In this document: positions 1 to 57,000 of the stretch, in pieces
Layout: each line of letters begins with the position of its first letter
Position numbering within the stretch: position 1 is the stretch's first letter
From: Trebouxia sp. TZW2008
Taxonomy: Eukaryota; Chlorophyta; Trebouxiophyceae; Trebouxiales; Trebouxiaceae
DNA length: 64,000 bases
Reading direction: 5' to 3'
Assembly (NCBI GenBank): GCA_002118135.1
Contig: BDIU01000010.1
Location: 124,001 to 188,000, forward strand
Program-made: the position numbers and the translations under genes
Notes under the pieces: generated by a model
The model's input: only the letters and a program-made list of their open reading frames with translations
What the model was told of the DNA's origin: nothing
The model's database searches: none

Positions 1-172
1 CTGCCAGCTCACTGGCATATGCGGCTTCCAACTCTGTTTTGCTGACCTTCCACCTGCACGCGTCAACAGTTCAAGTCAGGCGCCAGAAACTTGTATAGCT
101 GACGGCTGATTCTGGCTTCTGCCAGAGCATTGGCATAAGCTGCCTCCAACTCTGCTGTGCTGGCCTTCCACC
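1..172 (-). repeat. Two acceptor-side copies of the last VWA3 exon in the window
   Basis: Minus-strand copies lie at about 58-1 and 172-109. Each has an AG acceptor followed by codons for RWK(V/A)S(K/T)(T/A)ELEAAYA. By the rule seen elsewhere, the 3'-most copy (58-1) is the true exon and the upstream one is intronic. The exon continues beyond the window. Confidence 0.6.
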
Positions 173-3100
173 TTCATAAGTTGGAGTAAGAGTTCAGATG
201 GCCCAAAAATACATAATTGAGACTTAGTGCAGGCCTACAACACAAGGAACCATCAAACAGCAGTGTATGGGGCTATGTAGGTAGGTCCTGAGACAGACGC
301 TTTTCAATAGACAGATTGAAAACAGAAATGTTCGACAGCAGACATCTTCAGGTGTAGGTCAAAATCTCTTAATGAGTCAAGTTGCTGGCAACATTGTCAG
401 GTGAGTCACAAAGCTGCCATTGCTGGCTCACCCAGCGGACCACACGTCTACTGGCATGCTGCAACACAGTAAGGGTAGCGTGCACCTTTGAACTTGGCAG
501 CTGCAACAGAAAGGGTGCAGCCTTATGCACAATGGTGTTGATGACAGCAAAACTGCATGTCCACAACGATCGGCCCCCAAGCCTATCATTGCATCTTCTG
601 CCATGGTGATAAGTGCAACCTATCATGGTCACGATGAGATACCATTATAATGGACGTCCTCGAAATGTCTACTACGCTGTGACATACCTTTTGACATTGG
701 CTTCGTGCTCTTCCCAAGCAGCCCTCTCAGCCTTCACTTCCTCAAGATGCTGCTGCCTGGTGTCAGCATTGCGTTGCTGCACCTGTGCCACTGCTGCTTC
801 ATGCTGCTCCCTCACCACAGCTGTGGCTGCAGCCGGCAAGGCCTGCTGCATCATGGCTTCCGCCACAAAGCTGCTGACATAGGCTTGGACCACATCTGCT
901 TCGTACTGCTCCAGAACAGTCAGATCGCGTGCTGCATAGACTGATGCCTCTGGCCTGCTCCGGCCTGCAGCTGTGGCGCTGCTGCTGGATGCATCTGGCT
1001 CAGAAGCAGGGGTTTCAGCCTCATCATGCTGTGCCTGCTGTGGTCCAGAATTCAAACGCTGCGAAGCCAACAGGCCAGTGCCTTGCTGCACCTGCTGGTC
1101 ATGCTGTGCCTGCTGAGCGCCAAGGTTCAAACTTTGAACTTGCTCCTGAAGCTGCTGGGACTGCTGCCTGCTTGACAACTGGCTGAAGGTATGGCTGACC
1201 TGCTGCACATCCGCGAAGATAGCATCAGAAGCCTGAGACTCGGCTCCAGCGGCGCCTTCCAGGTCTACAGACTGCCTCCCTCCTTGCATCTGTACTGCAG
1301 GCTGGTCCGCACCACTGTTTGGAGCTCCCACCTGGTCTGCACTTTGAACTGAGGCAGGCTCACGGAGTGACATAGCAGAAGCTCGCTTTGCAGACACAGG
1401 TCCGCTCACTGCAGCTGCCTGATGTCCAGGCACAGCTTGACCAAGCTGTGACGGCGTTGATGCTGTGCTTGGAGCTGTGCTGGTAAGCGGGTCTCTGTCT
1501 TGTTGAGCAGGCTGCGGTGGTGGAGCAGCCACAGCTGTGGGCCTGGCCTGGGAGGTGGGCAAGAAGGAGCTGCTGAGCTGCTCAGCTGAGTCCTCTGGCT
1601 GCAGCGTGGAGAGCCTGAGCTTGGGTATCCTCGCTTTACTGCCTGACAGTGGCTCTTCAGTTGGCAACTGCACCCACACAACTAACATTTATGGCTGTCA
1701 AAGGAAGTACATCATGTATATGACTCTAAAGATACTCAGAGCTGCTGCAAAGCTGTTGAGGTTCCAACATTGTCGAGGCCAAATGCGTTTACACTGCTTT
1801 CATAGCATTCTATGGGAAATGATCCTGAACTCTACCTCACATATCCTTGTCATATTTGCTCAAGGCAAGATGCAACAGGACGGGCACAGCAAAAGAAACA
1901 GGCTGCGTATAGCACTATAATGTATATGTCAAGTGCATGACTGCCCTACCTGCATTGACTCCCATTCCATGATGGCTAGTTGGTACTGCTTCTGCCACTG
2001 CTGCAGGGCCAGGTCATGCTGATGCCGTGCAGCAGCCATCAGTTGGGCATTATGCTCCCGCAGAGGCTCTGTTAGCCTGTCGTATTCTTCGTCACTCCGC
2101 CTAACAGGAAGAATGACAAAGTTGAGCTTGCCATTGCTTGTGATACTGATCCAGAATGCCGATTGCCTGCGTCAGTGGCATTGCAATTGCGAATGCAATG
2201 CCAAATGTACCAATGTACAACCAGGATGCGCGCAATGCACTACAGGCAGCTTTCTTGCGCTTCAAAATAGATTGCGACTGTATAGCAGGTGAGCGCATGG
2301 CAAGGTTGTGGAAATTTAAGGTTGTTGCCAAAGCTTTCAGGAGTTCAAGCTCACCAGCACAGTGCTCCATGCATTAAAATGTGCTTTGCTGCAGCCTGCA
2401 TACTGTTGCCCCTGGACGTCAACTGTTCCCTCTACATCGCTGTGTTCTGACTGTCAACGATGTTCGCAGCTACCAATGAGTAGAGCTCACTGTCTTAATG
2501 ATTGGTTCATTACAGCAGGTTTCACTGCAGCATGCATGCTGTTGCACTTAGACATCACAGTAGGTACCTTTGTATTTCGGCATTCAGGTTGTCAACAATG
2601 GCACATTCAGCTGCATGGGCAGCTTCCAGGGTGACAGTCTCCTGCTGGTAAGCAGCTGCCTGTGCAGCCACCCTCTCAGCATGCAGCTTGGGTAACTGAG
2701 CCATCAACTCAGCAAAGCTTTGCTCCAACCCCAGTCTGCACATCAACCAAAGTGGGTTTTGGACTGTTTTATTTGCTGCAGTCACAGGAAGTTGATGAAG
2801 GCCCTGTGCAAAGATGGTCAAACATGAACAGTCGCGACAAAGCCGCAAATCAAGCTGCTGCACTCAAGACAGCACTGAAGGCAGCGAGCCATCAGCTAAG
2901 CAAAGCTCTGCTCCACCCCAGTCTGCACCAAGCAGCAAAAGTTGATTGCCAGCTTGATCAACAGGTCTGTGATGCAAAGGCTGATGAGGAGGCTTGACAT
3001 GCAGCTGAAGTGGCTGAGCCATCAGCTCAGCAAAGCTCTGCTCCAACCCCAGTCTGCACCAAGCAGCAACAGTTGATTGCCAGCTTGATCAACAGGTCTG

Positions 3101-6100
3101 TGATGCGAAGGCTGATGAGGAGGCTTGACGTGCAGCTGAAGTAGCTGAGCCATCAGCTAAGCAAAGCTCTGCTACAGTCTGCATCAAGCAACAACATTGT
3201 TTGCTATCTTGAAAAAGTCATAACGCCTTGCATACGTAGCCAGTTTCCCTCCAAGAAGGCGTTTGAGTCAGGAAACAAAGAAGATAACTTGGCATGCAAG
3301 GGACAGCAAGTCAGGCTGCTGCATGAGCACCACAAGTGCTGAATGACACAGTGCGATTCTTGATTGTCGTCAGGACCAGGTCCAATGTCAGCCGTCCATG
3401 CATGGTGCATATACCAAAAGGCTGTTCAGCCTTGTTCTGTATCAAGGCATGCCATATGGCCGTACGCCTTACATCAGGGCAAAGCCACTGTCTGCAAGAG
3501 TTGCAGCATCTGTATCATACACCTGGTGTTGTTGCGGCACTGCGCCATCAGCTGTCCATGCATGCTGCTCACATCATGCCATACTGCCTTGTTATTGCTA
3601 AGGCATGGTATATGGGCTGCTCACTGATTCTACATTAAGGCAGAGCCACTGAGCCAACGGCTGCAGCATCTGTGCCCCACACCTTGTGTTGTTGCGGCGC
3701 TGAGCCTGCAATGTGGCCTCTGACCACAATCTCTCAGTCTGCACTGCCTCGGTCTCACCCTGCAGGTTATACTCCACCCACTGCCCATTACTCCACACCC
3801 TCCATACATCTGGTCTGTACTCCTGCATGAAGGCAAGCATGCTTTCAGTGTACACTGCATCAGTCTCACCCTGGAGGTCATACTCCACCCACTGCCCATT
3901 ACTCCACACCCTCCCAACATTTGGTCTGTACTCCTACGTGAAGGCAAGCATCCTTTCAGTGTACACTGCCTCAGTCTCACACTTGTCGCTCCACACCCTC
4001 CATAGATCTGGTCGGAATTTCTGCATGGCGGCAAATATTCTTTCAGTGTGCACTGGCTTAGCCTCATGCTGCAGGTTACACTCCACCCACTGCCCATTGC
4101 TCCACAACCCCCTTGCATCTGGTGGGGGCAATGGGCATGTATAATGTTGCAGAATTCAATGACTTTGCACGACTACATGACCCTTGAAGTCTCTATGTTA
4201 CTCTTGATGCTTTTGTGGGTGAGTGTTTCTGAACCTTGCAAGAATGATGAGCATGCTGACTTCACGCTTTTCTGCACTTTCCATCTGTACTATTGGGTCT
4301 TGCATGCTTCGGTAATCATCTCTGTGAGTCATGTTCCTGTCTTGCTCTGACAGAAACAAGACTCTCAAGTCATGTTCATGACATATTAGGAGCGTCGTGC
4401 TTGCAAAGCTACCTGGAAGGTGCCGCCAGTGAGGGCTGACAGCTGGCGCAGGAAGCGCTCGCCAGGGCCGCCCCGTTGCTCTTCAGCAAAGAAGCCTACA
4501 GTGTGGATAACAGGCACCCGCTCTCCTTGCATCAGCCTGTTCCTTAGCTTCTGCAAAAGGATAACAACAGATGCCGTTTACAAAAGATGTAAAGCATAAA
4601 GTGTCTGCGTATGGTCCGTGGTGCTTGTTGACGTTTTTCTTTTGGCCTCAGGGGTACAACCCCTGACATGCTGTGGCATGCTGTGGTAGTCAGCTTGCTA
4701 TGGTCATGCACTACAGTGATTCCATACATGCAGCAACAGAAGAACTGTAGACATCATGCATCAAGGACGATTATTGCAGACATGATGTTGGCAACCTGCT
4801 TGAACGCAAATGCATGGAGCCTGGCAAGCGCAGCAAGCCCACTGCACACACAGCCGTTGCTCACGCGCCAAAAGCTGCATAGTGACATGCATTGACAAGC
4901 TAGTGCTTGCCACCATGGCTGGCTTCCATACACACATTAGAGTACACCAGCAGCATGCATAGGTCATGTTTCCCTGGTACGAGATTGACAGCACAGCAGC
5001 TACCTCCAATAGTACAATGGCGTAGTCTGACAGGCCATCTGAGAAGATGTATGCGCAGTCAGCTTCCAGGTACTGCTCGGCCAGCTGCAAGGCAGCTTCA
5101 TAGTTGGTGTGGCCAACAGGCTCCTGCCAGCTGTCCACCCAGCGCGCTGCCTCTGCTAACAACCCAGGTTCAGCAGGCACCAGCTTTGTATGCTGCCCCT
5201 TCTGCAACATGCAGTACTGTGTCAGAAGATGTGAGCTGCTTGAAGGTGCTTGGCAAGAGAAGTGCAGCAGAAAAAGCTGTGGCCAACAGGCTTTTGCCAG
5301 CTGTCTACACAGTGTGCTGCCTCTGCCAATACCCCAGGTTCAGCAGGCACCTCTTTTGTGTGCTGCACCTTCTGCAGCAAGCAGCATTCCGCATCTAGTT
5401 GCCATGACAGTAGTATGTTGCTTGAAACGGCGGGACAAGAGCAAGTGTGCCTTTCTGCCAGTAAAGCGGGCACCAGCTTTGTGTGCTGCCCCTTCTGCAA
5501 GAGGCAGCACTCTAAGCCTGGCTCCATGGTATTAGCAAGATACCATAACATTTTGTAAGCGTACAATGTCTGCGTCGCCCCAGAGCAACAAAACAACGGC
5601 AAGACAGATGAGATAAAGATGGCAGAAGCCAGCTTACCAGCTGACGCATGCAGCCAGTGCTGGCAGAGTTGGGCCGATACGCCCTTCTGCCATTCTGACG
5701 CCCACTCAAGGGCCTGCTGGCCGTCTCCAGCAGGTGCAGGTGGCCCTCATAGCAGGCGGCCCAGCTAGTGGCCGCACTGCTGAAGGCTATCACGTCAAAG
5801 CCATGGGCCACTGCTGCTAGCTCGCCTGATGGCTGCAGCAATTGCAGTGCACAAGCCTGCACCACACATGCCAGCATGAGTGTGAGTTTATGGAACAGCA
5901 GGTGCCGATGGCCTCATAGCAAGCTGCCCAGCTGGTGGCCGCACTGCTGAAGACTATCACATCAAAGTCATGGGCCACTGCTGCCAGTTCGCCTGAGGGC
6001 TGCAGCAGCTGCAATGCACAAGCCTGCACCACATGCCAGCCAACGTCAGCAGGCCTGGAGCAGCAGGCCTGGCCTAGGATGATGTCTCTGCACACTAGAC

Positions 6101-12869: not shown

Positions 12870-15800
12870 CTTGCCAGTTGAGAAACGCTGAGACCAAGCA
12901 AACAGGTATGCAACCCAGGTACCACCACATCGCCATCTTGAAGAAAAGCCGCCAGTTGGCATGACTTAGGCCCTCCACAGACCCAACAGCCACTATGGCC
13001 GAAATCTGCATCATGGCACAGAAGACAAATAGCTCCTGGGAACTACAGTTCCTGATCTCAACAAGATTTGTCATACTATTTTTGCAGGAATATAAGTATC
13101 AGTAGAAGCTTTCTTATGTAACAGCTCTGCTGCCCATGCCACACAGCTACTGCAAAGTCCTTAGCTCCTTGAAGCACTGATGCTTGCCATCAAGCCAGGC
13201 ATGAACTCTCACTGCTCTGAGAGTCTAGCAAGTACACAACTGCATGATTCAAAGGAGTGGCATGTCTGCAAGCAAATTGAGCTGCCTCTGATTTGATTGA
13301 AGGCATCAGCAAAGCCGTTGTGGCACATGATCAAGGATACAGAGCAGCAATCAACAGCTATGACCAGCGCGGGCCCATGCAGCTCAAGCAGTTTGCCTTG
13401 CATTGATCATGATCAGCACAAGCCCATGTAGACAGATCAGGCTGCCCTATGCTGATGTAGGCATGAAGGATGACATGCAGATAGATCAGGCTGCCTTACA
13501 CTGATGTAGACATGAGGAATGGCCATGCCAAGAGCTCTGCCGACAATGGCAGCTATGCCAGCAGCATACATGACCACGCCTGCTCTCACAGGCGTCAGCT
13601 TACACAAATGAACACCTGCAGACAACCTTGCTGCTTGGCTTCGCTTGTCACCGCCCGAAGCAGCTGAAGGACACCATAGCACTGGCTGGAGCGGGTAGCT
13701 TACACCATGGATCACACACTATGTATCATCGTAGTGTCTGGCAACGTTCCCAACAAAGGGCAATGTTGATGCTTGTAGCCTATTGCCACCTCTTGAGATG
13801 GGTGGCAGTAGGTGTGCCAAAGGGGAAAATGTCTGCCCATTTCACACGTACTGCATATTGGGTAGCTCCAGGTGACTTCAGATACATGGCAGTGGCTTGG
13901 CAGACTGGGCTTTTGCTTCAATGTCATGTGATCTTATGTGACATGGTGACGTTTTCAAGGAAGATAAGACAGGCATGGTCTGCTGGAATTGTGTCGTATT
14001 GAGCTAGCTGCACAGCAGCAATCATTGCATGCTTCAACGCCTAGCTCATAACTGCGTCAGACACTCTATCAATGCAATGCGCAAGGCACAGCGCAAAACA
14101 CTTTTTTGCCACGGTATGCATGCATTGACATGAGCCATAGATGCAGAGGCGAGCAAAGCACATACCTGTTACAGGCATCAACCGTTGCCCAGCCAAGACA
14201 GCGCCAAGGGACGTACAGACTGCAGTAGCGCATCGTATGTAGATGGGCACTGAAAACGTCACTGGCACCTCCCCAGTGAGGTATATGTTGAGCATGCTGG
14301 CAAACAGGCCCCCTGCTGAGCTGAACATGCTGCCACTATACGACATCGACAGCAGGATGCACTGGAACAACTGCACACAACACACAAAGCGTCTTTGTGG
14401 CTGCTGCTATAGGACATCGACAGCAATATACACTGAAACAAGTGCACACAACAGACAAAGCACCTTCGTGGCTGCTGCTATTGGGCATCCACAGCAGGAT
14501 ACACCGTAACAACTGAAAATTCTGCTACTATAGGACATTGACGGCAGGATGCACTGTAACAACTGCACAAAACAGACGAACCATCTTTGTGGCTGCTGCT
14601 ATAGGACATTGACAGCAGGATACACTGGAACAACTGCACAAAACAGACGAAACAACTGTGTGGCTGCTGCTATAGGACATCCATAGCAAGATGCACTGGA
14701 ACAACTGCACACAACAGACAAAGCACCTTGTGGCTGCTGCTATTGGGCATCCACAGCTGAATGCACTGGAACAAATGTGCACAACAGACGCAACATCCTT
14801 CTGGCTGTTGAATTCAGGCACATTAGCAAGGCAATCGCACACTGCTGTAGCCTGGCTATACTGCAGGTGCTGAGGGACTGGTCCAGCAGCAATACCATTT
14901 CCCATATGCTCTTGCATGGTTCAGAGATTGCCCCAGTATGTATGTAGCTGGGCTGGCTGAGCCTGCCTAGCATACTTTTAGATGAATACATGAAAGGATA
15001 TGCTCTTGCATGGTGCAGCAACTCACAGGTCAAAAGGGACCGAGCGCCACATACATTGTATGGTCCTTGACTGACGTATGCATAAGATAACACAGAAGCG
15101 GACTGGTTGAAGACATTTGATTGCTCCAGTACATACCTAGCTGGGCCTGCTGAGCCTGCCTGGCACACGTCTGGAATGAATGCATGAAAACGATGTATGC
15201 AGGACTTGGACACAGTGACAGAAGTTTAGGAGGTCAGGAAGCACACACCACTGACTGGTGAAAAAGTCCTTCTGAAGTTATGTCAAGCTGCTCAGCTGTG
15301 GAGTGGATCTGAATGAGCGTGTCATCTTTGCTGATGTCAGCAAAGATGTCCTTTTGCAGGAAATGATTCCAGAAGATGTTGAACCAGCTCATGTCATGAG
15401 TTGATGCGGAGCTAGCTGCCAGATCCTTCACCACATCCTCTGGCTGCAGAAAAGTTCATGAATTCAAGTCCAATACAAGTGACTCGGGTTAGCACAAGAC
15501 CAAACTGGTTGGAGACAGTTGATTGCTCCAGTACGTACCTAGCTGGGCCTGCTGAGCCTGTCTAGCACGCGCTATGAATGATTGAACAAACTCATTGATG
15601 ACATTAACGTGACATTTATGCATTCATCCAAGATCACGTTGTCAACATTACTGTTGTAACTTGCAGATCCACATCTTCAGTGTGATGTTGCAACGTGCAA
15701 TACCCATGGCAGCCCTGACGTGGCAGGATGGATGCAGTGCCTACCAGGTATCAACTGTGTGTCGTCCAACAGCAGCAACAACAGAATAGTGCTGTCACTC

Positions 15801-32124: not shown

Positions 32125-33321
32125 ACCAAGCTTAAAGAATCAGGCCTCACAATCAGAGGTGGCACAGCAGATGTCACAAATCTAGAAGCTGCCCAGATGC
32201 AGGGCCAATCACTCGAGCAAGGTCAGTTGCACAAAAACAAGCAAAGTTCTCAGCATTGTGCTTGATTCATGATCAGAATGCATTTTCCTGGCTGTGTCCC
32301 TTGGTCAATGGCAACCTCCTGCTCCCAACGATCACGAAAATGTGTTGACATGAATGCTGAGAGCGCTATGTTGGCAGCTTGACAAGTCACAGGATTGACA
32401 TGTGTTCCATGTTGTTTTCAATTGACCAAGTTGCGTTTGTGCCGTCATCCCTTTGAAATCAGCCGAGTTGAGCAGCATTGTGAGAGTGATGTGCAAGACC
32501 TGCACCTAGCTTGTCAGTCACCCAATGGAACGCTGACACGTCGCTCAGTCATAATCTGTCCACTCACCAACACTGACTACAATGAACGAAGACAAACAAA
32601 GCAGATGAGACAAGCACCGGCAGCAATGCTCCTGCAGAAATGTACAGAGGTCAACAAAATAGCAAAGCAAGCTGATGCTGATGCTGATGCTGGTCGCTGA
32701 GCTATACTAGCTGGTGCTGTAAACGAGCTGCTACTGTGCAATCTGAGTCGTCGCTGAAGGTGGAGGTGAGAGCCGGTCACGAGGTCAGCAGACACACGCA
32801 GAGCGCATCAAGTCTCACAATCACGTTATGCCTGAAGCCAGACAAGCACAAGCGGTCTCGTATCGGAAGAGGGTGAGTAGCTTCAACAAGGATAGGGTTG
32901 AGGCATACTCGCAGGCACAGGCCACCCAATGACAGCCTCACTTCTTCACCTTGACCATTCACCTCCTGCTGCTTCCGGGCTGATCCCATAGCATGCATGT
33001 GAAAGCACATCAGCTTCTAAGGTGGTTGCTGCGCTTGGTGCTTGTAGTCAAAGAGTCTGTTGTTGTGGAAAACAGCAACTGGCAGATGTCACTCTGGGCT
33101 GCTCCAAGAATCAGCTGTGACTGTTGCTGATGCATGACAGGCCCTGAGCAACTGAAACAGGTTAGGAATCTATTCATTGTGTCACCAGCATGTTGCTATA
33201 CCTTCTCAACAGACCTGAGCTGATGTATTGGCTGAGGCAGAAGCTCAATCTCGCCTTGTCAACAAGAATCTGCTGATGACTATTTTGCAGAAGACACTCC
33301 TCGACCAACCAACTTGATGAC
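32125..33321 (+). CDS. Possible small plus-strand gene, two exon blocks, unidentified
   Basis: Block 1 (about 32121-32221) codes LTKLKESGLTIRGGTADVTN, then Glu/Gln-rich residues, ending at a GTCAGT donor. Block 2 (about 33217-33321) can join in phase and codes a helical stretch (DVLAEAEAQSRLVNKNLLMT), then a stop after DQPT. The combined sequence looks like a coiled coil. The 5' end and start codon are not found. It could be the end of a protein starting near 32020 or a pseudogene. Confidence 0.3.
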
Positions 33322-33401
33322 GTCTGCATATGAACTTCTGTAAAGCCAAGTCTGAAGACAGGTGATGGTTGTGGGTGCTTGTTGACGGCTCTTTTGCAGG
33401 T

Positions 33402-42000: not shown

Positions 42001-45000
42001 GACATGCTTGAGTGCAGAATACTCCAGTGCAGCCAGTCTGATTGCTGACAACCAGGCAAACTTCATCATAGCAGCTGCAGCATCCAACCAACCTGCTACT
42101 GCTGATAGTGTGTCTAGCACAGTAACACCTTCTTGTCATCACTGCAAGCATTTCACAAAACATGACTGTGGCCTTGAGCTTGAATGTTGACTGACTCAAG
42201 ATGCCTGAGTGCAGGATATTCAAGTGCAGCCAGCTTGATTGCTGACAACCAGGCAAACTTCATCATCGCTGCTGCAGCAGCCAACCCACCTGCTACTGCC
42301 ACTAGTGTGCCTAGCCCAGTCACGCCTCCACCTCCTGTCATTACTCCTCAACCTACCGTCATTACTCCTAACATTACACCAAACGCAATTGTGATCAGCC
42401 CAGCTGCTGTCGTCACTTCCCCTAGCATCCCACCAAACACAACTGTGACCAGCCCAGCCCCTGTCGTCACACCTGTGCCCGCCAATGTCACTGCCACTCC
42501 CACCCCGCAGCTGAGTCAAGCTGCAATCAACAGCAACAGCAGCAACAGTACCACTGTTAGCCCTGTTGCAGCATCCCCTCCAGTTGTTGCCAACTCCACA
42601 GCTAACACCACTGCCTCTCCCAACACGCAATTGAGTCCGACTGCAAACAACAGCAGCAGCAGCAATGTCACTGTTAGTCCTGCTGCAGCACCTGCTCCAG
42701 CTGTTGCCCCCTCCACAGCCAATGCTACTGCAAGCGGCACAGTTGCAAATGTCAACAGCACAAATGCACTGACAGCAGCTGCTGCCCGTGCCCAGTTGAC
42801 CCCTGCACAAAATATAGGCAGCTATAACGCCTCGTTCCCAAGGATTGCGCTACCAGAACTTAGCCCTCAAGCCTTGCAACAACTGAATGACGTTGTTGCT
42901 GTGGCGCCTCTGAGGCCACCACGAATCTACACTCCACAGGAGGTAAGTAATACTTGCACTGTAGTGGCTGCACATGCAGTGACTACACTGTATAGGTAGT
43001 GACTGCATTGATGACTGCACAGTGACTGCACAGCTAGTGCCTGCATTTGTGTAGTGACTGCACTGCAGTGACTGCTTTGCTTGTGATTGCAACTGCCGGT
43101 CTGTGTGTGCATTGCATTATGTGTCTATGCACTGCATCGACAATCTACGAAATCAAGTGCCCATAATGTATGGCAGGGTCTGGCTCATCTGTTTGTTGGT
43201 CAAGCACGCGTGCAATTCCAACTGCCTGTCTGTGTGTGCACTGCATCAGCATTTTACCGAAGCAGATGCCCTTGAGGCATGGCCAAATCTGGAACAAACA
43301 TCGTTGTGCAGATTGCACCAGCTGTCGCCAACAGCAGCAACCCTGGAGCAACCTTAGGCTGCCTGCAACCTTAGGCTGCCTGCATCATTCCAAATGCACT
43401 GATCAAGACTGCATTATGCCCTTGTACAGATTGCACCAGCGATTGCCAACAGCACAGGGTTCATGGCAAATGCTCTTCATGTATTACTGAATAAATGCCA
43501 CTATGGAGGTTGCACAAGCTACTGACAACAGCAGCAACCCTGAGGCAACCTTGGGCTACCTGCTGCATCATTTCAAATGCACTGCTCAAGACTGCACCAC
43601 GTCACTGTGCGGATTGCAGCAGCCACTGCCAACAGCAGCAGCCATGGAGCAATCTTGGGCTTCCTGCTGAATCATTCAAGCGCATTGATCAAGACTGCAT
43701 TATGCCCTTATGCAGATTACACAAGCTACTGCCAACAGCAGCAACCCTAGAGCAACCTTGGGCTACCTGCTGAATCATGACAAATGCATTGATCAAGACT
43801 GCATTATGCCCTTGTGCAGATCGCACCAGCCATTGTCAACAGCACCAACCCTTGAGCAACCCTGGGCTTCCTGCTGGATCAGATCAACATAGCAGCTACA
43901 AACAGCACCTCTCAAGCAGCAGCTCAAAGGACAGGCTTCATAGTAAATGCTCTTCATGTATGACTGAATGAGTGCCACTGTGCAGATGAAACAAGCTACT
44001 GACAACAGCAGCAACCCTGGAGCAACCTTGGGAAACCTGCTGAATCATGTCAAATGCATTGATCAAGACTGCATTATGCCCTTGTGCAGATCGCACCAGC
44101 CATTGTCAACAGCACCAACCCTGGAGCAACCCTGGGCTTCCTGCTGGATCAGACCATCATAGCATCCACAAACAGCAGCTCTCAAGCGGCTGCTGTAAGG
44201 ACAGGTTTCCTAGCAAATGTTTCCACAGCGCTGTCACAGAATGAGGGCGTTTGTGTCAACAACCAGACGCAGATCAGCTCATCACCTAGTGCGACTGGGA
44301 CATTGCTGAATGGGGTGGTGTGTCAGTTGACTCACAATCTGCCCGCTGGTGCAAGCATGAACACAGGTGTTGTGAGCAACCTCTCTCAGCCACAGCGACA
44401 GGTACAGCTTCTGCTTCCACTACTGCTTGTCCTCCAATGCTGGCTTTGTGAAACAGATATTTTCTTCGTTGCTGAGTCTGTTTGCTTGACACCACAGGCA
44501 CAGGTATAGCGTTTGCTGTAGAGGTTGCCTCTGTACACTACATTTTGTTCCTGTGAGTCTGTTTGCTTGGCGCTACTTGCTTGCCTGCCTGTGGAGATTG
44601 TTGTCAATCTTACCATGGGTTTCATTCATCCACTGACTGGAATCGCATGCTGGACAGGCTCAGCAGGCCCAGCTAGATTCATTGTTAGCTCTCAGACTAA
44701 GTTTGCATGCTGTAGACAAGGCTGACCGCATGTGCCACAAAATGGCAATGACTACATGTCCAGGAAGTTGGGGCAGTCTATGACATAGTGAAACAGCCCC
44801 CCAGATAAATATCTTGCGCAAAGAAAGCATGCATGGCGTGACCACAGCCTTCAAACAAATGAGCGTTCTCGGCCCGCAACTCAGCTGATGCCATAGACTC
44901 AAGCACCAATGCCTTGTGTTACAGGGTAGATTTGGTAATGTGGTCCTGGATGCAGCAACAGTAGCGAATGCTACATTGCCGGCTGGATTCAATGCTACCG

Positions 45001-48000
45001 AGACCTTTTCTCTAGCCAATCTGACCGCCCTGAACATCTCTGCAAACTCCCTTCTTGGAGTGACCCTAGGTAACCATTCCCGATCTAGCCTGAACCAGCT
45101 GCATTGCATTAGCCGCAAGATGTTCAAGTTGCTGATGACACCCAAAAAGCGTACTGAACATCTCTGCCAACTATCTGATTGGAGTGGCCGTATGTAAGCC
45201 CGATGCAGGTCAGCGTCTCAGACACTCTTGTGCTCAAGCTTTCATTCCCAATCTAGCCTGAATCCGCTGCAGTAGTCACAAGATGTCCAACTTGCTGATA
45301 AACCCCAAAAAGCATCCTGACTATTGTTACAATTCCACTGTTCAAGAGTGTTGCGCCTTCTATGCCTCTAGGGGAGTGTGGCATAGGCACACTCCCCTGG
45401 CAATGTATGCGAAAAGGTGTAATGTGTCGTAACCATAATACACGTATTCATACATGATTTTTGTGAATGCCTTTCAGGCCACATCGCTCCACGGCTACAA
45501 TTACCTTTGCCTGGCAATACCTCAGGTTTGGGGCGACCCAGGTGCACCTTGGACAGACAGTACATGCTCAAGGTACCTGTTCCTGTCCACAATATTTGAT
45601 GCGTTTTTCTTCTTGCATGCATTTGGAGAGACTTTGCTTGACACTTGTCTGTCATATAGGCATTCCTGTTCCTGTCCAGATTGAGCTTGATATACGGCAT
45701 GTACTTGGAGAGAGTACTAACATTTGTCTGTCATATTTTTGTGTATTCATAAGCTTGTGTCCGCAACACAACTCGGAGTGAAACAGAGATTTGTGACAGC
45801 GCACTCATGCATCAACTCAACAAGTGCATCTGCCCAGAAAGGTATCGTTGACAAAGTATCCAAAAAGCTGACGAGCAAAGTGGCCAAGCACAATCTGACA
45901 AACTAAGGAGGAAGTAAAATTGAACAGCATGCGCAGTTTCTGGTTGCAGGGACACAGCAGGCGGTCATACAGACAGGGTCAGAGTATTGTCAATGTTACT
46001 CTACTGCAAGTGACAGCCTAGCTTGCTGTGTTGATGCCCTGCGGCAGTAAGAGTTGTCACTTAGTGGGTTGCGCAAACATACTTCCATCGAGACAGCATT
46101 TTCCTAAGGTACCTGTGAAAAAAGTTGTGCTTGGCTCAGGCTGGAGACACGTGCCAAGCTCTTGCACAGTTGCTGGGAGTGACAGAAGATGCTCTGGCTG
46201 AAGCCAACCAGGGCAACGACTTTGACTGCAGATCGTAAGATGCCTACTTTGGCGCATTTTTGAGTTCTGAGTTCTTGACTTGAGTTGTGTTGAGATGCGC
46301 TGTGCGTTTGTTGAGCAGGCGTTGAGCTTGAAGTGAGTTGAGCTTGCATTGATCTGAGTTGTGGTTGTGTTCTTACCCCACTCTCCCTCCCGCCCACCCA
46401 CCCGCCCACTCGCCCACCCACCCATTGACCTGCCCATCCACCCTGCGATTGACCCGCCCACCCACCTGCCCAAGCACTCACTACAGCATGCTCTACTACT
46501 GCACTTGCGCAAGCAGACGGCACATGACAATTTGTGATTGCATGCTGTCGCTATCTTCCTGCTCAGCAACAAACATGGGATGCTCTTGCAGGCAAATGAA
46601 CGCTGGCAAATTTGTTTGCCTGCCAGAGAGGACGTGTAACCAGACACATTTCACCACAGTGGACGACACCTGTCAACGCGTGTTGTATGCTTATGGTCTA
46701 ACAATGGACGTGTTCTCAGCCAACAACCCCACCCTTGACTGCAGCGCTACTGGGCTGCCATCTGGCAGATTTGTGTGCGTCGACGGGGCCACAGGTAAAC
46801 GATTAGTTTGTTGCATGACACTGATGCTGTGATGTGCACATCAGAAGGTTTGCGTTGACGATAGACAAATGGGGCAAAGTTCAGCAGCACACTTACTTCA
46901 AATCTTGTGTTGCTATGCTGTGTCCAGAACGAGTCAATTTCTTGCAGCACCACATGGCCAATGGAGGTATGTGACATCTGTTACGATCTGGTGAGTTGTT
47001 TTGAATCTTGGTGCAGGCACTGGCTTTCCAAGACACACACCACTGTACGCACTAAAAGCTGACATTGTTCCTGCTACATCAGGGTTGAGTGCTGCTTCGT
47101 GGCAGGACTACTCTGACCAGTGTCTCTTGTGCACTAATGAGGGAGCAACAGGCAAGCTTGCAGTGCGGTGATCCAGAAGTCACTAAATAGTCATTTTTGC
47201 ACCTAAATGCAGGCACTGGCTTTCAGAAGCACACACCAAGAGAGAGAAGATCTACATCCCTTGGCCAGTCGACCAGCCTGATTGCATGTACTGAGGTGAA
47301 TGCCCCATTGGAGCTGAATGAGTCATGAACAAGCAAGCTTGCACTGCAGGTGGTCCAGAAGTCACATATTCTACCCTTGAAGTCAACCTAATCGTGCTGG
47401 GAGCAATCAATCAAGTGCATCCAGGTCTTGTTCCCACCAGCGTCATCAATGCAGCGCATGATGGATCCTTGTATGCGGTAAGGCCCACTTCTGCATGACT
47501 ACATGTGGCAAGATTGGCTATTTTCCCATGGGGTCCTGTGGAACAACAGCAAGCTTGCAGCCACGTGTTTGTATGCTCTTTATATGCAATGTACAAAGTG
47601 TATAGCATGTATATCAGCTTGTGCATGCATTTACACATGCACACATGAGCTTATGCTCTTACCAACCAGGAGATCATGCATGATCTTCACAAGAGCCAGC
47701 ATTGGGAGTTTGATCTGTCGGTGCTTCCATATGCTGGATGTTGTTCCCCGGACTGCTCTCGAAATGCTCCCTTTTCATGAGAAAAGCTTTGCAGCATAGC
47801 TGATTAGAATTTGCAATGAATGCAACACTGAACAAGCTGAAGTTCACTTGAAGCTGCGTCTGCTTACACGACCAGAAGCCAGCTTGAATGTGCCATAGTG
47901 CTGCTGCTGACATGAGTCCTCTCAGATGGGACAAAGCCATTACCTGAACCCCCCTCCCACTGCCACCCATCCTCCCACACACACCCCCGCCTGATTTGCA

Positions 48001-51000
48001 ATCAATGCAGCTGGGCACCAAATCTACTCGACCTTCGCCCCTTGCCACCCGCACCCTCATGCATTCACCCACCTGATGCGCAATCAATGCAGCTGGGAGT
48101 TGGCACTGAACTCCAATCCCCTTGCCACGCACACCTCCACCCAACTGACGCGCAATCAATGCAGCTGGGAGCCCACAGCTGACTCCCTCCCCTGGCCTCC
48201 CACCCTCCCACCCGCCTAATGTGCAGTCAACGCAGCTGGGAGCCCATAAGTAACCCCCCTCCCCTTGCCATTCACCCTCCCGCGCCCCCGATGTGCAAGC
48301 AGTGCAGCCGGGGAGCCCAAAGGTTTACCCTTTCCCCTTGCCACCCACCCGTTCACCCGCCTGCTGCGCAATCAATGCAGCTGGGAGCCAGCGCCTGACC
48401 CCCTTCCCCTTGCCACCCCGCCCTCCTGCCATTCAGCCACCCGCCTGATCTGCAATCAATGCAGCTGGTAACCAGCACCTCAACTCCCCTTGCCGCCCAC
48501 CCTCCCTCCCACCCACCCCTCCGCCTGATGCGCAGTCAATGCAGCTGACACAGCCAAAACATGCTTTACGCAGTCGTTTGATGCTGGAGCACCTCCTCCT
48601 GTTCAAGTGGCCTACACCAATGTGTTGGCAAGCACAGCAGCCAGGGATGCGCTCCTCCAGTCTGCACAGTCGTACACAGTTGGCTCAGTCCTGGCACAGC
48701 TGAATGTTGGCAGGTGAACCTGCCTGCCTGCCTGCCTGCCTGTCCGTCCGTCTGTCCGTCTGTCTGTCTGTCTGTCCGTCCGTCTGTCTGTCTGTCTGCA
48801 TGCTAGTCAGGCTCTGAGGCCTTGCTAGGTACATACAGCCACCAAGCAATTGTCCTTGCATAACTCATTCTGTTCACATGCTGAATCTGTAAACTGCATT
48901 GATCAGGAGTGATGGACATGTTCTCTGGCAAGTCACGTATGTGACTTCGAATTCATCAAACGGCACATATGATGCATCAGCTGTGTCCTGTAGTATAGGA
49001 AACAATACTAGTTTGATTCTATGTTGCCATGTCTATCGTCTCCGCTACTAGTTTGATTCTATGTTGCCATGTCTATCGTCTCCGCTCTGACGTCAAACTA
49101 GTGCGCAAATGACACATATGGTGCATCAGCTGTGTCCTGCATGTTGTTGCTCTAATCTTGTTGCCCTGCTGACTTGCAATGTATAACTGTCAGTGATAGG
49201 TCCAGGGTTCAATTCCCAATCTGTCACCACCGCAGGAAAAAGTGTGCTGTTGTTAATATTTGGTCTATCAGTGGCTGCAGGGCAGAGCAGTGTTCCAGTC
49301 CTCCTCCTCATCATCGCCATCATTATTGTTGTTGTAATGATTGCTGTTTGCTTCGTTGCTTCAGGGCAGAGCAGTGTCCTAGTCCTCTTTCTCATCATCA
49401 TCATCAGTGTGGTTGTTGTGATGATTGATGATTGCCTCGTTGCTTCAGGGCAGAGCAGTGTTCCAGTCCTCCTCGCTTCCAAAGCTCGGCCACCACTGGA
49501 TGCTTCTGCAGCAGTGACCCCGTGCCGCACTGCAACGGCTTGCAGCGCTTGGACTTCTTTGCTCTCTTTGCCAGACACAGCAGCACTCCCAGCCAACCAA
49601 GCTCGGTATGCATCGCTCACCTAGTTGCTGCTTGCCAGTTACAGCAGTACTCCCAGTCGATCAGGCTCAGAATGCATGGCTCATATAGCTGCTGCTTGCG
49701 AGCACTAGTACTTCTTGAGTCTTCTAGCCAGTTACAGCAGTTGGCCCAGTCAAGCAGGCTCAGAATGCATGGCTCATATAGTTTCCGCTTGCTAGTCACA
49801 GCAGTATTGCCAGTCAACCAGGCCCAAAACATACCCTTGATATAGATGCTGCTTGCTTGCGCTTCTTTGCTCAATTGGGCTATCCAAAGCTCTCCCAGTC
49901 AACCAGGCTTGGTATGCATTGTTCGCATAGTTGCTGCTTGCTAGCATTTGTGCAATGCAGAAAAAGCCGCAGCCTCAAGTCTCATCACTCTTGTTATGCA
50001 TACATCATGATGTATGCATATTACCTGGCAGTATAATCAGAGCTAACAGAATGAACGCTTGCAACAGTCAAACATCAGACATTCTTATCTTGGCACTCAA
50101 GCCAAGCCTGCCTGGTGAGACAGCATTTGGGCCACACACATTAAGCAATATACTAGAGAAGCGTCAGTCGTTATATAATGAGCAAACAAATAATATATCA
50201 TACCTCTCACATAAACTACAGCTCAACGTAACATAATCACAGAATGATTGGACTGCAGGCTTCTGCTGGCCAACGCCGGCTACAGGACTTGGGGCCTGTC
50301 ATGATGACTACAACCAAAGAAATTTGTTAGACAACATTCAAAGCTTCGATAGTAGCGTGTGCATAACCCCCGGAAGCCTGATCCAGAATGACAAACATAA
50401 TGACTCAACAGAATGACCCAGAATGACTCAAACAGAATGAGTTGACCATGACTCACAGGATGCTACAAAACTCAATGACTCAGAATGACAGAGTGATTTG
50501 GCTGTAGGCTACTGCTGGACGGTGCATGCTACAAGATCTGGAACCTGTCATGATGGCTGCGACGAAGAAGTTTGCCAAGAAAGATTTAGCTCAAGAGCGA
50601 TACATGCACAACATCCCGCGACACAATTTACAGCAAACATAATGACTTGGCTGCAGGCTACTGCTGGCCGACGCATGCTACAAGATTTGGAACCTGTCAT
50701 GATGGCTGCGACAAAGAAGTTTGCCAGAAAGCTGGCAGCCCATGCGCCTCCTGCGGCTGACAAGCAGACTGCAAGCACACGGCGGACACTCAAGGACGAC
50801 AACAGTAAGTTTCAAAACTTGACCATCACTGCTTGTATATGAACGCATTAGCCTTTGCCAATTTGACAAAAGCTGGCAGCCCAAGTGCCTCATGCAACAA
50901 GCACACAGATTGCCACCACTCAATGGACACCCAAGGATGACAACAGTAAATTGCAAACCTTGATCATCACTGCTGAAATGAAAGCATTAGACTTTGCCAA

Positions 51001-54000
51001 TTTGCCGGAAAGCTGGCAGCCCATGCGCCTCCTGCGGCTGACAAGCAGATTGCAAATACTTGGTGGACACTCAAGGATGACAATAGTGAGTTTCAGGCCT
51101 TGATCATCACTGCATCAGATATTGCCAATTTGCCACAAGCTGGCAGTCCAAATGCCTCATGCAACAGGCAAGCAGACTGCCACTATTCAATGGACACTTA
51201 AGGATGACAACATGTACAGTAAGTTTCAGGCCTTGGTCATAATCTTTGTACGTTAACTCTCTTTGATCTGCAACTGCTTTGATAACCAGGAAAGCTGTCC
51301 TTATATCCAAATTGTCCTCACTCAGAGGTACAATTGGAGTCAGCATGCAGATTGGTTCCCACTTGCATTGTGCCTATATCAAGCAAGTCCTTGTAGCAAT
51401 CATCTTTATACAAGAGAGTCTGTTTTGCCCTGGTCACTTACACTCGAGAAGATCATCATCTGAGCTGGAGACATTCACCCAGCACATCCACATGGGCACC
51501 AATCATTCCTGCTGCAAATTCTGTTCCTGCAGCAAATATGCAATCAAAGGCAGTGCGGCACCTGCAGCCAAGGGCGGCCTTGCAATGCCTCTTTTAGGGT
51601 TGAGACCATGCAATGCAAAGTTGCTGATCAGAAGGTTGTTTGCTGCAGGCTTGACAACAAGAGGCATGCAGAACAGGGTTGAAGGCAGTTTATTGTAATG
51701 CAATCATAGGCAGCTTTGCAAGGGTGCATATGCATGTTTAGACTGTGGGCATGTATCCAAGACACTCACCCAGCACATAGGCACCTTTCAGCCCTATTGC
51801 TTTGCAAGGGTGCATATGAATGTGTAGACTGTGTGCATGTATCAATGACAATCACCCACCACATGGGGACCAATCAATTCTGTTGATTTGCAAAAGTGAA
51901 TGCGCATGCGTAGACTATGTACCAGAGAGACTGCAGGATGCTCCACCAAACATGCTGCAAAGTTCATGCAGCAATCAAGTTATGCGCAAATTTGCACTGT
52001 TAACTGTGAGCTATGTTGTTGCGGCCAATTTGCAGAACATGGCAGCCAAAAGTGAACTCATGTGCAAGTTTGCTTTACTCTTTGTGTGCCATACTGCTGC
52101 AGCCTATACGCAAAACAGAAGTGACCTTCTGCGCAAGATTGCACTCCTGACTGTGTGCTATGTTGCTGCAGCCGTGTTGCAGAGCGTAGCAGCTGCAGTC
52201 AACGCTAGCATCAATGCTTGCTGCAAAATATAAGCAGAAATGAACTTCCGCGCAAGTTTGCACTGCTGACTGCGGGCTATATTGCTGCAGCCATTGTGCA
52301 TAATGTGGCAGCTGGGGTCAACGCCAGCATCAATGCGTGCTGATACATTCAGACAGAAATGAGGTTCTGCGCGAGATGGCACTGCTGATTACAGCTGTTT
52401 GTCATGTTGCTGCAGCCATTGTGCATAATGTGGCAGCTGGGGGTCAGCGCCAGCATCAATGCATGCTACAAAACTCAGGCAGGAGCCCTCTTCTGTGCAA
52501 GTTTGCAGCACTAACTGTGTGCTATGTTGGTGCAGCCATTGCGCAGAATTTTGCAGCGGGGGTCAATGACAGCGTCAATGCAGGAAGTGCCTTGCAAAAT
52601 GGCGACCTTGGAGGTAAGCTAATTTGACTGCAGTGCATTGCATGATTGCACTGCTTGATCCTAGCAAACAGTGGTAATGTATCTAGCAAGAAGCCATACC
52701 ACAAGTGCATACGTTCTGTGAGCCTTGCATGCTGCCTGCAACTGCCGCAACAAATGTAGAGTCACACGGCAGTACATGATAATATACATAAAAACGCACT
52801 ACTTGGGCTCAAAAGCCTTGCTAGGTACACATAGTCACCATGGCAGTAAGCACTGAAAAACAAACATTTGCAGACTGCCATGTGATAGGCACGTGTCCTG
52901 CAATGACTGAAATGGCATAGCATACAGCAAGCACTGCCGGCTTCACCTTACACACACAGCTTCCTTTGCATATCCACTTTGCATATAACATGACTGGTTA
53001 AATGTAATGTAGATCTTTTCAGAAACCCGACAGGGGGCGGACACAGGGCACTACTCCTGATTACAGTACAACAGTCTTTGGTGATAAAAAATAGCCCTGT
53101 TACCTGAAACGGCCCTGTATATGGAGAACAGCCCTGTCACCTGAAACGCACTTGCTTATGGAGAATAAGAATTTGAATGCACCAGTCAGCAACAACAAGA
53201 TTCTCATCCTTCTTTGGTGTTCAAGACTGTGCGGCGTGTTTGCAGGTGCTTACACATACGCCAATCAGACATACCAAACAGTCAATAGCGTGCTTGGTCA
53301 AATTAACAAGACAGGCACAGCTATCACCACGCTATACGGCAACTATGAGAATCCTGAAGCAGCTGAAGAAGAGGATTCGTGCGAGGGGTCTTGGAAAGGA
53401 TGGTAAAGCCTAGCTGTTGTGAGATGCACGCCTGACTGTTCCATCTTTCCATATGTATGGTTCAGGGTTTTAAACCCTGAACCCATAAGTGATGTCAGGT
53501 GTCTGCATCACTGATAACACCTGCATCAGTGTCATGATCGCAGAAATGGCAGGAGCCATATATGCACTGTCTATGCCATGGTTCCTCTGCTCACTACCCT
53601 CAACGTTCTTTTTGCTGTGACTTTGATGGTCTTGATCTCTGACTGTGCATTCAAATTGCAGTCCTCACTCCCCTTGGAAACGGCTGTTAATTGTGTAGCA
53701 CCTGAAGCTGTCCTGAAAGCGCTGTTCAGTTTCTTCTCTGCATGACAAGAGAAGAGAAGACACTGCATATTTGCTGTGCTTTCCTTCCTTTGCTTATCAA
53801 GAAGGTTGTCCTTACACCAAATTGTCCTCACTCAGAGACACCACCACAGTCAGAATGAAGTGCTTGGCTCCCAATTGCCTTCACGATTCTCCTTATATCA
53901 GTGTGCTTGTCAAGAGAACTCATGTGTGCTGTCAGGAGCCCAATTCCCCGTGAGGATTCAGAAGACCATGACCCCCACTCTCCTTATTGTGCTGTTCTGA

Positions 54001-57000
54001 ATTGCTGCTTCACAGAAGAGGTGGTAGATGTGTAAGGGCTTCTCTCCACCTTGTCTCCACATGCTCGCTGCTGCGTAGACCTATGCCTGTCATGCTATTG
54101 CTTCCAACTTCTGTGGGAGGCTGTTTACGTGTTTGGCACACCAGCACGCCAACTGCTCTTGCATGCAGCAGCGACCGCATGCATGCCTGCTCTGTCTGTC
54201 AAGCCCTATCTACACAGCTGGTAACGTCTATTTACAGCAGAGGTGGTGCATGTGTATGGCCTTATTTCCAAACGTGCTTGCTGCTGCATGGACTTGTGCA
54301 TGTGATGTAGTCCCACTCTTCAGATTTGCTGTATTGCATCAACAGCTACTTTTGCCTCAGCCAAGAGCTGAAACCCCTGAGGCAGTGGGATGCGTAAGGC
54401 CTTCTCTTCACACATGCTTGCTGCTGCCTGGACTATTGCATGCTTGTGTATGCAGCGGGTGCATATCCTGTTTATGTATACAAACTTGCTCTCTGGAACT
54501 GATATAGGCACTGTTTCATGCACGTGCATCGACTAGGCGCATACCCTGCACACATTTGAACAATATGAAGTTTATGCTGGCTTGCTGGCGGGCGCTTGAC
54601 TGTCTTCCCTGCTGCTGCAGATGCATTGAGGGGGACCTCTGCACTTCCAGTGCTTATGACTTAGGGTCAGGGGTGAGTTGATGCATGTGTCTTGCCTGTT
54701 CTGCTTTTTACAACATGAATGCAAGCTTGCTGAAGCAATAGTAAGCATGGAAATTGCTGTGCATGCAAGCCATGTGTGCACTTTCATGTTTTCGCATAGA
54801 TGTCACCTGTGCATATGCTATGTCATGCTTAGATCATCACCATCACGTGACTCGTCCATATGTTTACGTACCACAGTGTATGCATGCTGTCACAAAGTGG
54901 TCATTAGGGAGCTCTGCAGTGAATTTTGAGTTGTTTCCGGCCACACCATTCAGAGTGCTCACATGTTGTTGAACTGCAGTTGTTGACCACATTTGGTGGT
55001 GGAGCCGTCAACCCCCACACTCTTCAGGAGGGCATACTAGCTCCTATCATCCTAGACACACGGGTAAGCCTGTGCACACACCCTCTGACATAGAAATTTT
55101 AGCTCAGAAGAGCACTTGATGTTTCCTGAGAAAAAAAAACCAAAATTTTGCAATATGGCTGTGTCTGCCGGGTACTGGAGCATTTGAAAACACATAATCA
55201 GTTTCATGCAAAGTCTGCACGATGAGATGAACAGTGTGGTGTGCCATGTGGGTTTGTCAGGGGCACTTCACTATGTCATAGACTGCCTGAGCTTGATGTC
55301 CACATAGTCATTGCCACTGTATGGCACATTCAATCAGCCTTATTAGCTGGCTCAAGCAGGTACAGTTACTCTCTTCCTCTCTCATGCAGGTTCATGCCAC
55401 CATCCGGCTGTGCCTGCCATTCACTGGAGCCCTTGAGGATACCTTCGTTGGGGACCTAGGCATTGAGCCATGTGGCCTGCACATGGACATGACGTAAGTT
55501 TGTCAACCCCATGACGCAACTTGTGACTCAGAGATTGAGCCATGTGGCTTGCACATGGACATGACATCAGGTCGTCAACCCCACAGCGCATTTTGTGACC
55601 TGGGCATTGAGTCATGTGGCTTGCACATGGGCGTGACATAAGACTGTGACATGACGTAGAAGTGTGCAGTGTTGAAAATCTGAATACCTGTCAATGACGT
55701 GCATGCTGCCTTCACAAGCTTGTGGTCCACTGCATGAGACAGATGTTTCAGGTCATGGTAAACGCACCACTGCTTGTTTGTGAGTTTGCTGCGAGACAGT
55801 TGTTGAAAACCATGGCAAATGCATCGCAGATTGTTCGTGGATTTGCTGCGTGAGACGCTTGTTTCATTTTCATGGTCATTCAGCACTGATTGTTTTTGAA
55901 TGTGCAGGTTCTGGTCCCTGCAGATGCTGTCGCAAGCTTGTGGTCTGCTGCACGAGACAGAAGTTTGATTTCGTAACAAGAGCACCACTATTATTTTTGG
56001 ATTTGCAGGTTCTGGCCTCTGCAGATGCTGTTGCGAGCCACTGCCAATTTACAGTTGGGGGCTGCTGAAGTGGTGAGACTATTCTGTTTGCTTTCTCCCC
56101 ACCTTGCTCACTGTTCCTCATCCCCCCAACCTCCCCCCCCCCCACAGCCCAAATGCATACCGTCTGTACAGTTGGGGGCTGCTGAAGCGGTGCGACTATT
56201 CTATTTTGCCTTTTCCCCACCTTGCCCTGTGCTTTTTCCCCACTGCCCTCCGCCAGACTGCGCATCTTGCAGTGTCATGTTAAGCGCCAAGCATCGTAGG
56301 ACCCAGAAGCTGACCTTAGTCCTGCTACAGGAGGGATGAGTGCTGCTGTTCAGCAGGTCTACTCCATACCAGTGTCTGTTGCAATGTAGCTGTATGTGCA
56401 TTGATTGCCAATTTCTGTATTGTATATCTGTACACACTAGTATTGCCCTGCTGCTGGGGCATATACAAGCCAAATGGCAGTCATGCAACAGTGTTTATAG
56501 TGGCCACTGCTGATGTACGTGATTGATGCGAGAATGTGCATTGCTTCTTGTGACCATGGCGTATGCACTTCGTTGATGTGACAAAATGCACCTGCTACCT
56601 TGCTACAGTGTACAACTGTGCCATTGCAATTGTGCCAGCATTGAGTACCATAGAACATGTATACAGTGCGTTGTTGTGCCATGGACTGGTCCCAAACAAA
56701 AGATGTTTGAGCCAGGTCATCACTTGCAACACAGGCTGAGCACATGATGTGTCATGCTTTGCTGAACTGTGTGCTGCCTGTTGTACATATACATGCATGC
56801 ATGCATACATGTATATGCGCCAACTTAGGCTCAAAGGCCTGGCTAGGTACGCATACTCGCCAAGCAACTGTCGGTAAGCAGCCCAGTGTATTTAAACTGC
56901 ACTGATCAAGAGTGTCACGGCTTCTGTTACAGCAGCAGCAATTGTATGCCTTTTGCGCAACGTAAATGAACCTCATGAGCAGGGTTTCTGCCCTGTCTTG

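Follow-up and report, generated by a model that had tools for sequence, protein, structure and literature searches.

Half-exon copies in the CSC1/TMEM63-like gene and elsewhere in the window

The window, a 64-kb stretch of DNA from the 68.5-Mb genome of a green alga close to Trebouxia, contains a CSC1/TMEM63-like gene at 17455–27623 on the plus strand. The 17 exons and 16 introns of this gene were aligned by spliced alignment to residues 1–1006 of the orthologue P0121 from Trebouxia sp. C0005, making it the only window gene with verified exons, and its product matches Pfam PHM7_cyt (E value 1.6e-16). Copies of half exons are found at 5 of its 32 splice boundaries, namely the donors of exons 7, 8, and 13 and the acceptors of exons 8 and 14, and they sit within introns flanked by verified exons. 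At the donor of exon 7 (21009–21145), the array at 21104–21366 comprises the real exon end and two downstream copies (21184–21228 and 21317–21357). Exon 8 (21693–21837) is copied on both sides: the acceptor array (21516–21777) has an upstream copy at 21516–21604 of the source 21689–21777, with an in-frame stop, and the donor array (21758–22058) has a downstream copy at 21969–22058 with GT retained. The donor array of exon 13 (24507–24618) at 24575–24959 contains copies at 24708–24767 and 24890–24959. The acceptor array of exon 14 (25572–25741) at 25235–25679 contains copies at 25235–25310, in which AG is lost, and 25365–25483, in which AG is retained. Donor copies lie downstream and acceptor copies upstream of the exon at all five boundaries, in agreement with the original prediction. 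The roughly twenty boundaries in four genes given there hold for these five, while the exons of the other genes are ab initio or unmodelled.

Local direct copies were sought in the window by a blastn self-comparison and a sensitive local self-comparison, which together gave 31 arrays with a smallest spacing per array of 64–193 bp and a best pair identity of 71–94%. Some lie on the minus strand in the gene or genes at 0–15.8 kb, for which exons were predicted ab initio. They include an array of acceptor-like units of ~130 bp (2680–3212), two copies on the predicted donor side with 160-bp spacing and 71% identity (3388–3706), acceptor-like units of ~111 bp (3730–4123), three acceptor-like copies each with CAG (5108–5512), two acceptor-like copies with 168-bp spacing and 88.5% identity (5728–6040), seven acceptor-like units of ~71 bp (14321–14810), and three copies in a predicted gene (14926–15586). 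The seven-unit array, with CAG at the would-be acceptor in 5 of 7 units, is intron-only in the ab initio gene models.

On the plus strand, a gene at ~39–57 kb yielded no homologue in a protein search. Its array at 40161–40750 consists of about five contiguous acceptor-like units of ~122 bp (4.8 copies by TRF; four motif matches, three with CAG), the final one starting a presumed exon near 40674. Acceptor-like units of ~104 bp with eight motif matches follow at 43304–44219, where the final unit is the presumed exon start near 44090. Arrays of 2–9 copies had been predicted, and the existence of multi-copy arrays is confirmed by these two together with the seven units at 14.3–14.8 kb. Further along are units of ~72–84 bp with 68–79% identity (47935–48547), a 34-bp copy pair spaced by 149 bp (48957–49139) whose spacer holds an exact 40-bp tandem duplication (49006–49086), and three adjoining arrays (50232–51240, 51713–51920, and 51951–52582) with presumed exons. 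Near presumed exons also lie three donor-like 72-bp units at 55453–55642, with GT only in the first (ATGACGTAAG / ATGACATCAG / GTGACATAAG), and two copies at 56050–56225 with 117-bp spacing and 90% identity. With neither a homologue from that search nor a full model for this gene, predicted gene spans do not cover 15 of the 31 arrays in the window. No array was detected by the same window search at 25.7–40.1 kb, a region with a sugar transporter inside, and arrays are therefore absent from some genes. Searches of the PDB retrieved relatives for the models of the sugar transporter, a protease, and a malic enzyme, none of which contributed to any count; a search with a WD40-like model at 1e-40 gave no match.

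Prevalence, intron length, and position relative to exon boundaries

Together with two further contigs (C80 and C119), which are roughly as array-rich as the window, the sample of 264 kb contains 114 arrays, or 4.3 per 10 kb. The sensitive local search on a dinucleotide shuffle of C80 (100 kb) gave 0 pairs. Of 23 exon loci anchored by homology, which are spread over 17 contigs and in part overlap one another, 5 had an array, with 10.3 pairs per 10 kb. The copies are overwhelmingly direct (299 pairs vs 19 inverted matches), and 16 of the 17 inverted matches listed are self-complementary hairpins. Copy spacing is ~65–210 nt and independent of the reading frame, with unit lengths leaving remainders of 0, 1, and 2 on division by three in 37, 36, and 41 cases. 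Copies derived from exons occur near 57 of 233 exons and far from 7 of 233. The best pair is at least 95% identical in only 4 of the 114 arrays, indicating few young events. The junctions of two clean young two-copy cases have 1 nt of microhomology each, too few for a conclusion. Pair density was higher in genic than in intergenic DNA in C80 (11.7 vs 2.9 per 10 kb) and C119 (10.4 vs 2.5), and the reverse was found in the window (10.1 vs 21.8), where the large gene is unmodelled; enrichment in genes is therefore not claimed.

An artefact of assembly or gene models is scarcely credible as the source of the arrays. Most exons used in the analysis are ab initio predictions, and the gene finder called some half-exon copies exons in this genome. 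However, the exons of CSC1 and CDC48 were set by orthologues and those of ABC by HMM matches, and the arrays are not assembly doublings, since 110 of the 114 best pairs are less than 95% identical.

Predicted gene spans contain 91 arrays, of which 49 straddle an exon boundary, 28 are intron-only, 12 have both copies partly exonic, and 2 are exon-internal. The purely intronic arrays contradict the original prediction that the duplications always straddle splice sites. A strong straddling excess over all predicted genes under uniform placement (49/77 vs 0.25–0.32 expected) was set aside in favor of a high-confidence set, because exon predictions tend to gather at arrays and intergenic DNA has been merged into some of the "introns". 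This set comprises 126 introns between high-confidence exons, with introns longer than 1500 nt dropped. It contains seven donor, seven acceptor, and six intron-only arrays, a straddling fraction of 0.70. The fraction expected by geometry alone is 0.41 (P = 0.008), and it rises to 0.51–0.58 (P = 0.07–0.19) when detectability is assumed to be 1.5–2 times greater. When tandem duplication places exon sequence in an intron, the duplicated segment necessarily includes the boundary, for geometric reasons. The boundary bias can thus mostly be ascribed to geometry and to an "exon shadow", by which a constrained exon copy keeps a pair recognisable longer. High-confidence introns with arrays have a median length of 541 nt (n = 16) compared with 351 nt for those without (n = 110; P = 1.5e-5). 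After collapsing the arrays the median is still 490 nt (P = 9e-4), so the larger target size of long introns contributes.

Extent of the homologous blocks and state of the copies

Copies are contiguous in multi-copy arrays, and in the 51 single-pair arrays the homologous block has a median of 0.52 of the copy spacing (1.0 for a fresh tandem duplication). Residual flank homology is present in 11 of 38 single-pair arrays tested, compared with 1.9 expected. For 23 of 38 copies (10/15 in the high-confidence and 5/6 in the verified subset), the block ends on its intron side within −5 to +20 nt of the splice site. Across all pairs, which are non-independent within one array, 62 block ends lie within this distance of a boundary compared with 13.6 ± 4.4 after shifting the boundaries (maximum 27 in 200 trials); the corresponding values for the high-confidence set are 13 and 2.1 ± 1.6 (maximum 7).

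Such edges would be expected if copying were anchored at splice sites, starting or ending near the junction and inserting a half exon and a spacer into the intron. The trigger could be the edge of a nucleosome, the end of an R-loop, or template switching at the shared CAG|G motif. A process of this kind would repeatedly copy a half exon with 0–20 nt of intron, and introns would grow outward from their splice sites. In line with it, intron flank homology past the blocks is weak (3/30 at P ≤ 0.05, 0/11 for high confidence; 5/30 at P ≤ 0.05 in a second test of the spacers), and several pairs are 86–90% alike yet have blocks far shorter than their spacing. However, TGCAG is not clearly enriched at the edges of intron-only blocks (0.108 left and 0.041 right, background 0.070), and some spacers appear homologous with indels, as at the CSC1 exon 8 donor (P = 0.046). 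Old tandem copies that have decayed also look much like this in simulation. Neutral tandem duplications simulated at an age of 0.2–0.3 substitutions per site gave a detected straddling fraction of 0.70, a block-to-spacing ratio of 0.66, and splice-site edges in 0.41. The subset detected at 80–92% identity (n = 31) gave a ratio of 0.49 and edges of 0.58, compared with 0.46 and 0.61 observed. No simulated model matched the observed median identity (82.5%) jointly with the edge fraction, which was 0.03–0.30 at a median identity of 80–95% and 0.18–0.56 at 74–79%. In these models, the edge clustering near splice sites is approached only for old events or the best-preserved subset. We consider anchored copying unlikely.

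Alternatively, complete exons may have been duplicated, each copy then losing one end. CSC1 exon 8, whose 5' half is copied upstream and whose 3' half is copied downstream, fits this history. So do 7 of 30 cases with homology past the far edge of the block (P ≤ 0.05). A second splice site, however, is untraceable at the far edges of 37 copies: a score of at least 4 was reached in 5 of 37, indistinguishable from random intron positions (KS P = 0.47). Whole-exon decay thus has a low probability, and the half-exon copies agree with the prediction that the exon used is alone intact at both ends.

The splice dinucleotide (GT or AG) is kept in 34 of 47 unused copies at 35 boundaries, which matches drift (0.713 expected, P = 1.0). 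Two unused copies share 78.1% identity over their exon-derived parts and 76.1% over those intron-derived parts that can be aligned (P = 0.43), where intron divergence is perhaps understated because only alignable intron parts are covered. Differences between real exon and copy at the three codon positions are 12, 14, and 20%, a third-position excess that is absent between copies (17, 25, and 24%), and 7 of the 47 copies are frameshifted. These results support the view that the copies drift at about the neutral rate as dead remnants. Selection maintaining the copies as decoy splice sites, or as alternative sites or exons, could be read from the retained dinucleotides and from well-conserved cases such as the CSC1 exon 8 donor copy (86.7% identical). 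This reading is very improbable given retention at the drift rate, the lack of codon-position constraint, the frameshifts, the stop in one CSC1 copy, spacing that is no multiple of three, and the missing opposite splice site. Retention at the drift rate and the lack of coding constraint likewise lend no support to the suggestion that duplicated acceptors are used, although low-level use may occur. Transcriptomic data have been described for Trebouxia sp. A48 (PMC12712428).

Probable neutral growth of introns through small tandem duplications

The best account, to which we assign a probability of about 0.62, is neutral lengthening of introns by small tandem duplications. Blocks much shorter than the copy spacing, block ends concentrated near splice sites, weak homology of the intron flanks, and the scarcity of young events weigh against it. 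Head-to-tail duplications of ~60–210 bp would arise within genes. Those fully inside exons would mostly break the protein and be lost, while intron-only or one-boundary duplications would leave one exon whole, which splicing would keep using as the intron lengthens. The surplus half exon would be dead and drift, as site retention, copy-to-copy divergence, and the codon-position pattern suggest. Boundary-covering pairs would stay recognisable longer than intron-only pairs, as in the simulations, because one member is a slowly changing, constrained exon. Visible homology would contract to the exon side, and surviving copies would appear to hug splice sites. Large arrays would then expand, probably by unequal exchange. 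It had been proposed that purifying selection filters for near-silent events; the neutral drift of the half exons agrees with near-silence, but the straddling needs no special filter.

To our knowledge, transposon-free intron lengthening is poorly documented. Tandem exon duplication, including mutually exclusive exons, gives head-to-tail exon-derived copies, but those found here are without one splice site. NAGNAG tandem acceptors are repeated 3 nt apart; acceptors are repeated here too, but ~65–210 nt apart and with exon sequence included. Introner elements place one element in many genes, in contrast to the exon-derived copies described above, which occur mainly near their source. In plants, paired nicks reportedly yield small tandem duplications from break repair.

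A study of double-strand break repair describes small tandem duplications that are short and direct (PMC8355091); those found here are likewise short and direct, but old copies are parted by non-matching spacers. A review on intron gain by tandem duplication states that a small in-gene duplication is tolerated since splicing removes the extra sequence (PMC3443670); in contrast to the cases covered there, existing introns appear to be lengthened here, with no new ones created. A report on the potato RdRp gives a single duplicated segment of intron-exon structure (PMC4974935), whereas such events are common across the 264 kb. Near intron pairs in Drosophila (PMC2891723) arise by exonic tandem duplication and intronisation of one copy, which shifts or creates intron positions, while the verified copies here lie inside introns.

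For gene annotation, the arrays carry a warning, since half-exon copies in genomes of this kind can be mistaken for exons by gene finders. As datable tags in introns, exon-derived copies allow growth through small duplications to be counted. How well duplicated splice sites are tolerated may be read from the decay rate of the decoys, which here appears approximately neutral.

Abundance of local direct copies and their host genes

The genome comprises 68.5 Mb in 527 contigs, and the window lies at C10:124001–188000. Self-comparison detected 31 arrays of local direct (head-to-tail) copies in the 64-kb window. Stretches of 100 kb from two further contigs (C80 and C119) contained 43 and 40, and dinucleotide-shuffled C80 contained none. 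The pattern of local direct copies in the window is real. The best pair was at least 95% identical in only 4 of the 114 arrays, and this scarcity may reflect an old wave of duplication or a collapse of young copies in the assembly. Among the few young events is an exact 40-bp tandem duplication at window 49006–49086, with a junction homology of 1 nt.

The exons of the CSC1/TMEM63-like gene (17455–27623, plus strand) were fixed by spliced alignment of P0121, a Trebouxia sp. C0005 protein. The gene has 17 exons with GT..AG at 16 of 16 introns, which is no independent check as the aligner accepts GT/GC..AG only. A 637-residue part of the encoded protein is 67% identical, over the full length of that part, to a Trebouxia C0005 protein. 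Copies of exon ends were present inside introns at 5 of its 32 splice boundaries. The CDC48 gene (contig C119; 15 exons, fixed by the orthologue P0003), whose top-scoring algal homologues are from Trebouxia sp. C0005 and A1-2, has copies at one acceptor and one intron-only pair elsewhere. By the CSC1 and CDC48 homologies, the genome is probably that of Trebouxia or a close relative. Among 23 ABC-transporter exon loci on 17 contigs, found by HMM search and partly overlapping, 5 had an exon-derived copy nearby. The same pattern was seen in passing on contig C73, where two adjoining kinase HMM matches both begin at model position 118. The array search found none in the sugar-transporter gene (28218–32989, minus strand; Pfam Sugar_tr, E 6.8e-44) adjoining the array-rich CSC1 gene; thus arrays are uneven across genes. 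An ABC-transporter open frame at C17:29831–30268 (L002), which by eye we take to be cysA-like on a presumably chloroplast contig, was excluded from training.

A gene with dense arrays at 39000–58914 is secreted-looking and possibly lineage-specific: it has a signal-like start, is rich in Ser/Thr/Pro/Asn and contains, by eye, a LysM-like stretch, and a protein search found no homologue. A tandem duplication of ~117–120 bp within a long open frame (42489–42731) encodes a Pro/Asn/Ser-rich repeat, and two 29-bp minisatellites adjoin at 41772–41986. A short dispersed repeat in both orientations (44694–44792, 55267–55383 and 61333–61410; 76–83% identical) is perhaps a transposon remnant. The reverse-transcriptase-like open frame at 59868–61415, presumably of a LINE, runs into a stretch of N (646 N in the window).

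Position relative to splice boundaries

A home-made HMM gene finder predicted 28 genes with 312 introns (314 after insertion of the two verified genes). The original prediction held that duplications always straddle splice sites; this was not borne out, since the 91 arrays in gene spans included 49 straddling and 28 intron-only arrays; in another 12 each copy was partly exonic, and 2 lay within exons. A further 23 arrays, 15 of them in the window, lay outside predicted gene spans. At 126 introns with high-confidence flanking exons (donor 7, acceptor 7, intron-only 6), the straddling fraction was 0.70 versus 0.41 from geometry alone (P 0.008). When pairs with a slow-changing exon copy were allowed an assumed 1.5–2-fold detectability, 0.51–0.58 was expected (P 0.07–0.19). 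Tandem duplication can place exon sequence in an intron only if the duplicated segment includes the boundary, so the straddling form is largely geometric, to which a loss of exon-breaking events would add.

Short blocks and the fate of the copies

In 51 arrays with one detected pair, the homologous block spanned about half the distance between copies (median 0.52). For 23 of 38 copies its intron-side end fell between −5 and +20 nt relative to the splice site, and 62 block ends lay near a splice boundary versus 13.6 ± 4.4 with shifted boundaries. Such blocks can arise through an exon shadow, whereby boundary-covering pairs stay recognisable longer as one copy is constrained exon: in old events chiefly the exon side would remain alignable, leaving short blocks that end at splice sites. 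Simulated neutral contiguous duplications with 0.2–0.3 substitutions per site per copy gave a straddling fraction of 0.70, a block/spacing ratio of 0.66 and an edge fraction of 0.41, at a median identity of 76.6% versus 82.5% observed. Simulated pairs at 80–92% identity (n = 31) gave 0.49 and 0.58 for the latter two parameters (observed, 0.46 and 0.61). Younger or evenly spread ages produced long intron overhangs, which were absent from the observed pairs, and edge fractions of 0.03–0.27. Models with frequent large insertions matched the identity, and the block length in 2 of 3 settings, with edge fractions of only 0.19–0.30 and straddling fractions of 0.39–0.43. Spacer homology was significant in 5 of 30 cases. 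Given the identity mismatch, the sparse spacer homology and the poor fit of the other models, the exon shadow is the best available account and its fit is incomplete; the remainder may come from nested later insertions, from exon-to-copy gene conversion or from copying that is truly anchored at splice sites.

The copies are half exons: across 37 of them, the opposite splice site at the far edge was no better than at positions chosen at random within introns (KS P 0.47). Drift was examined in 47 unused copies at 35 boundaries, most derived from ab initio models, with copies taken for exons by the gene finder excluded. The splice dinucleotide was kept in 34 of 47 versus 0.713 expected under drift, and 7 of 47 carried a frameshift. 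Unused copies were 78.1% alike in exon-derived (n = 716) and 76.1% in alignable intron-derived sequence (n = 447), and thus differ equally in both. Third codon positions were the most different between exon and copy, with no such excess between copies, and array unit lengths were even across remainders modulo 3. From dinucleotide retention, copy-to-copy divergence, codon positions and unit lengths, the copies are being neither preserved nor eliminated, with occasional use possible.

Relation to known duplications

Introns arising by tandem duplication are established (PMC3443670, PMC4974935, PMC2891723), and small tandem duplications arise where breaks are filled in ahead of end joining (PMC8355091). 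The paper on the Trebouxia 'A48' genome (69.1 Mb, 49.7% G+C) does not use the word 'tandem' in its main text (PMC12712428). Among the matches listed from the open-access literature for tandem duplication together with Trebouxia, duplicated splice sites or longer introns, none described the combination as a genome-wide trait, which is no proof of absence. Tandem duplication spanning a splice junction is already known; the variant seen here lies in how abundant such duplications are and in what looks like a lengthening of introns that already existed.
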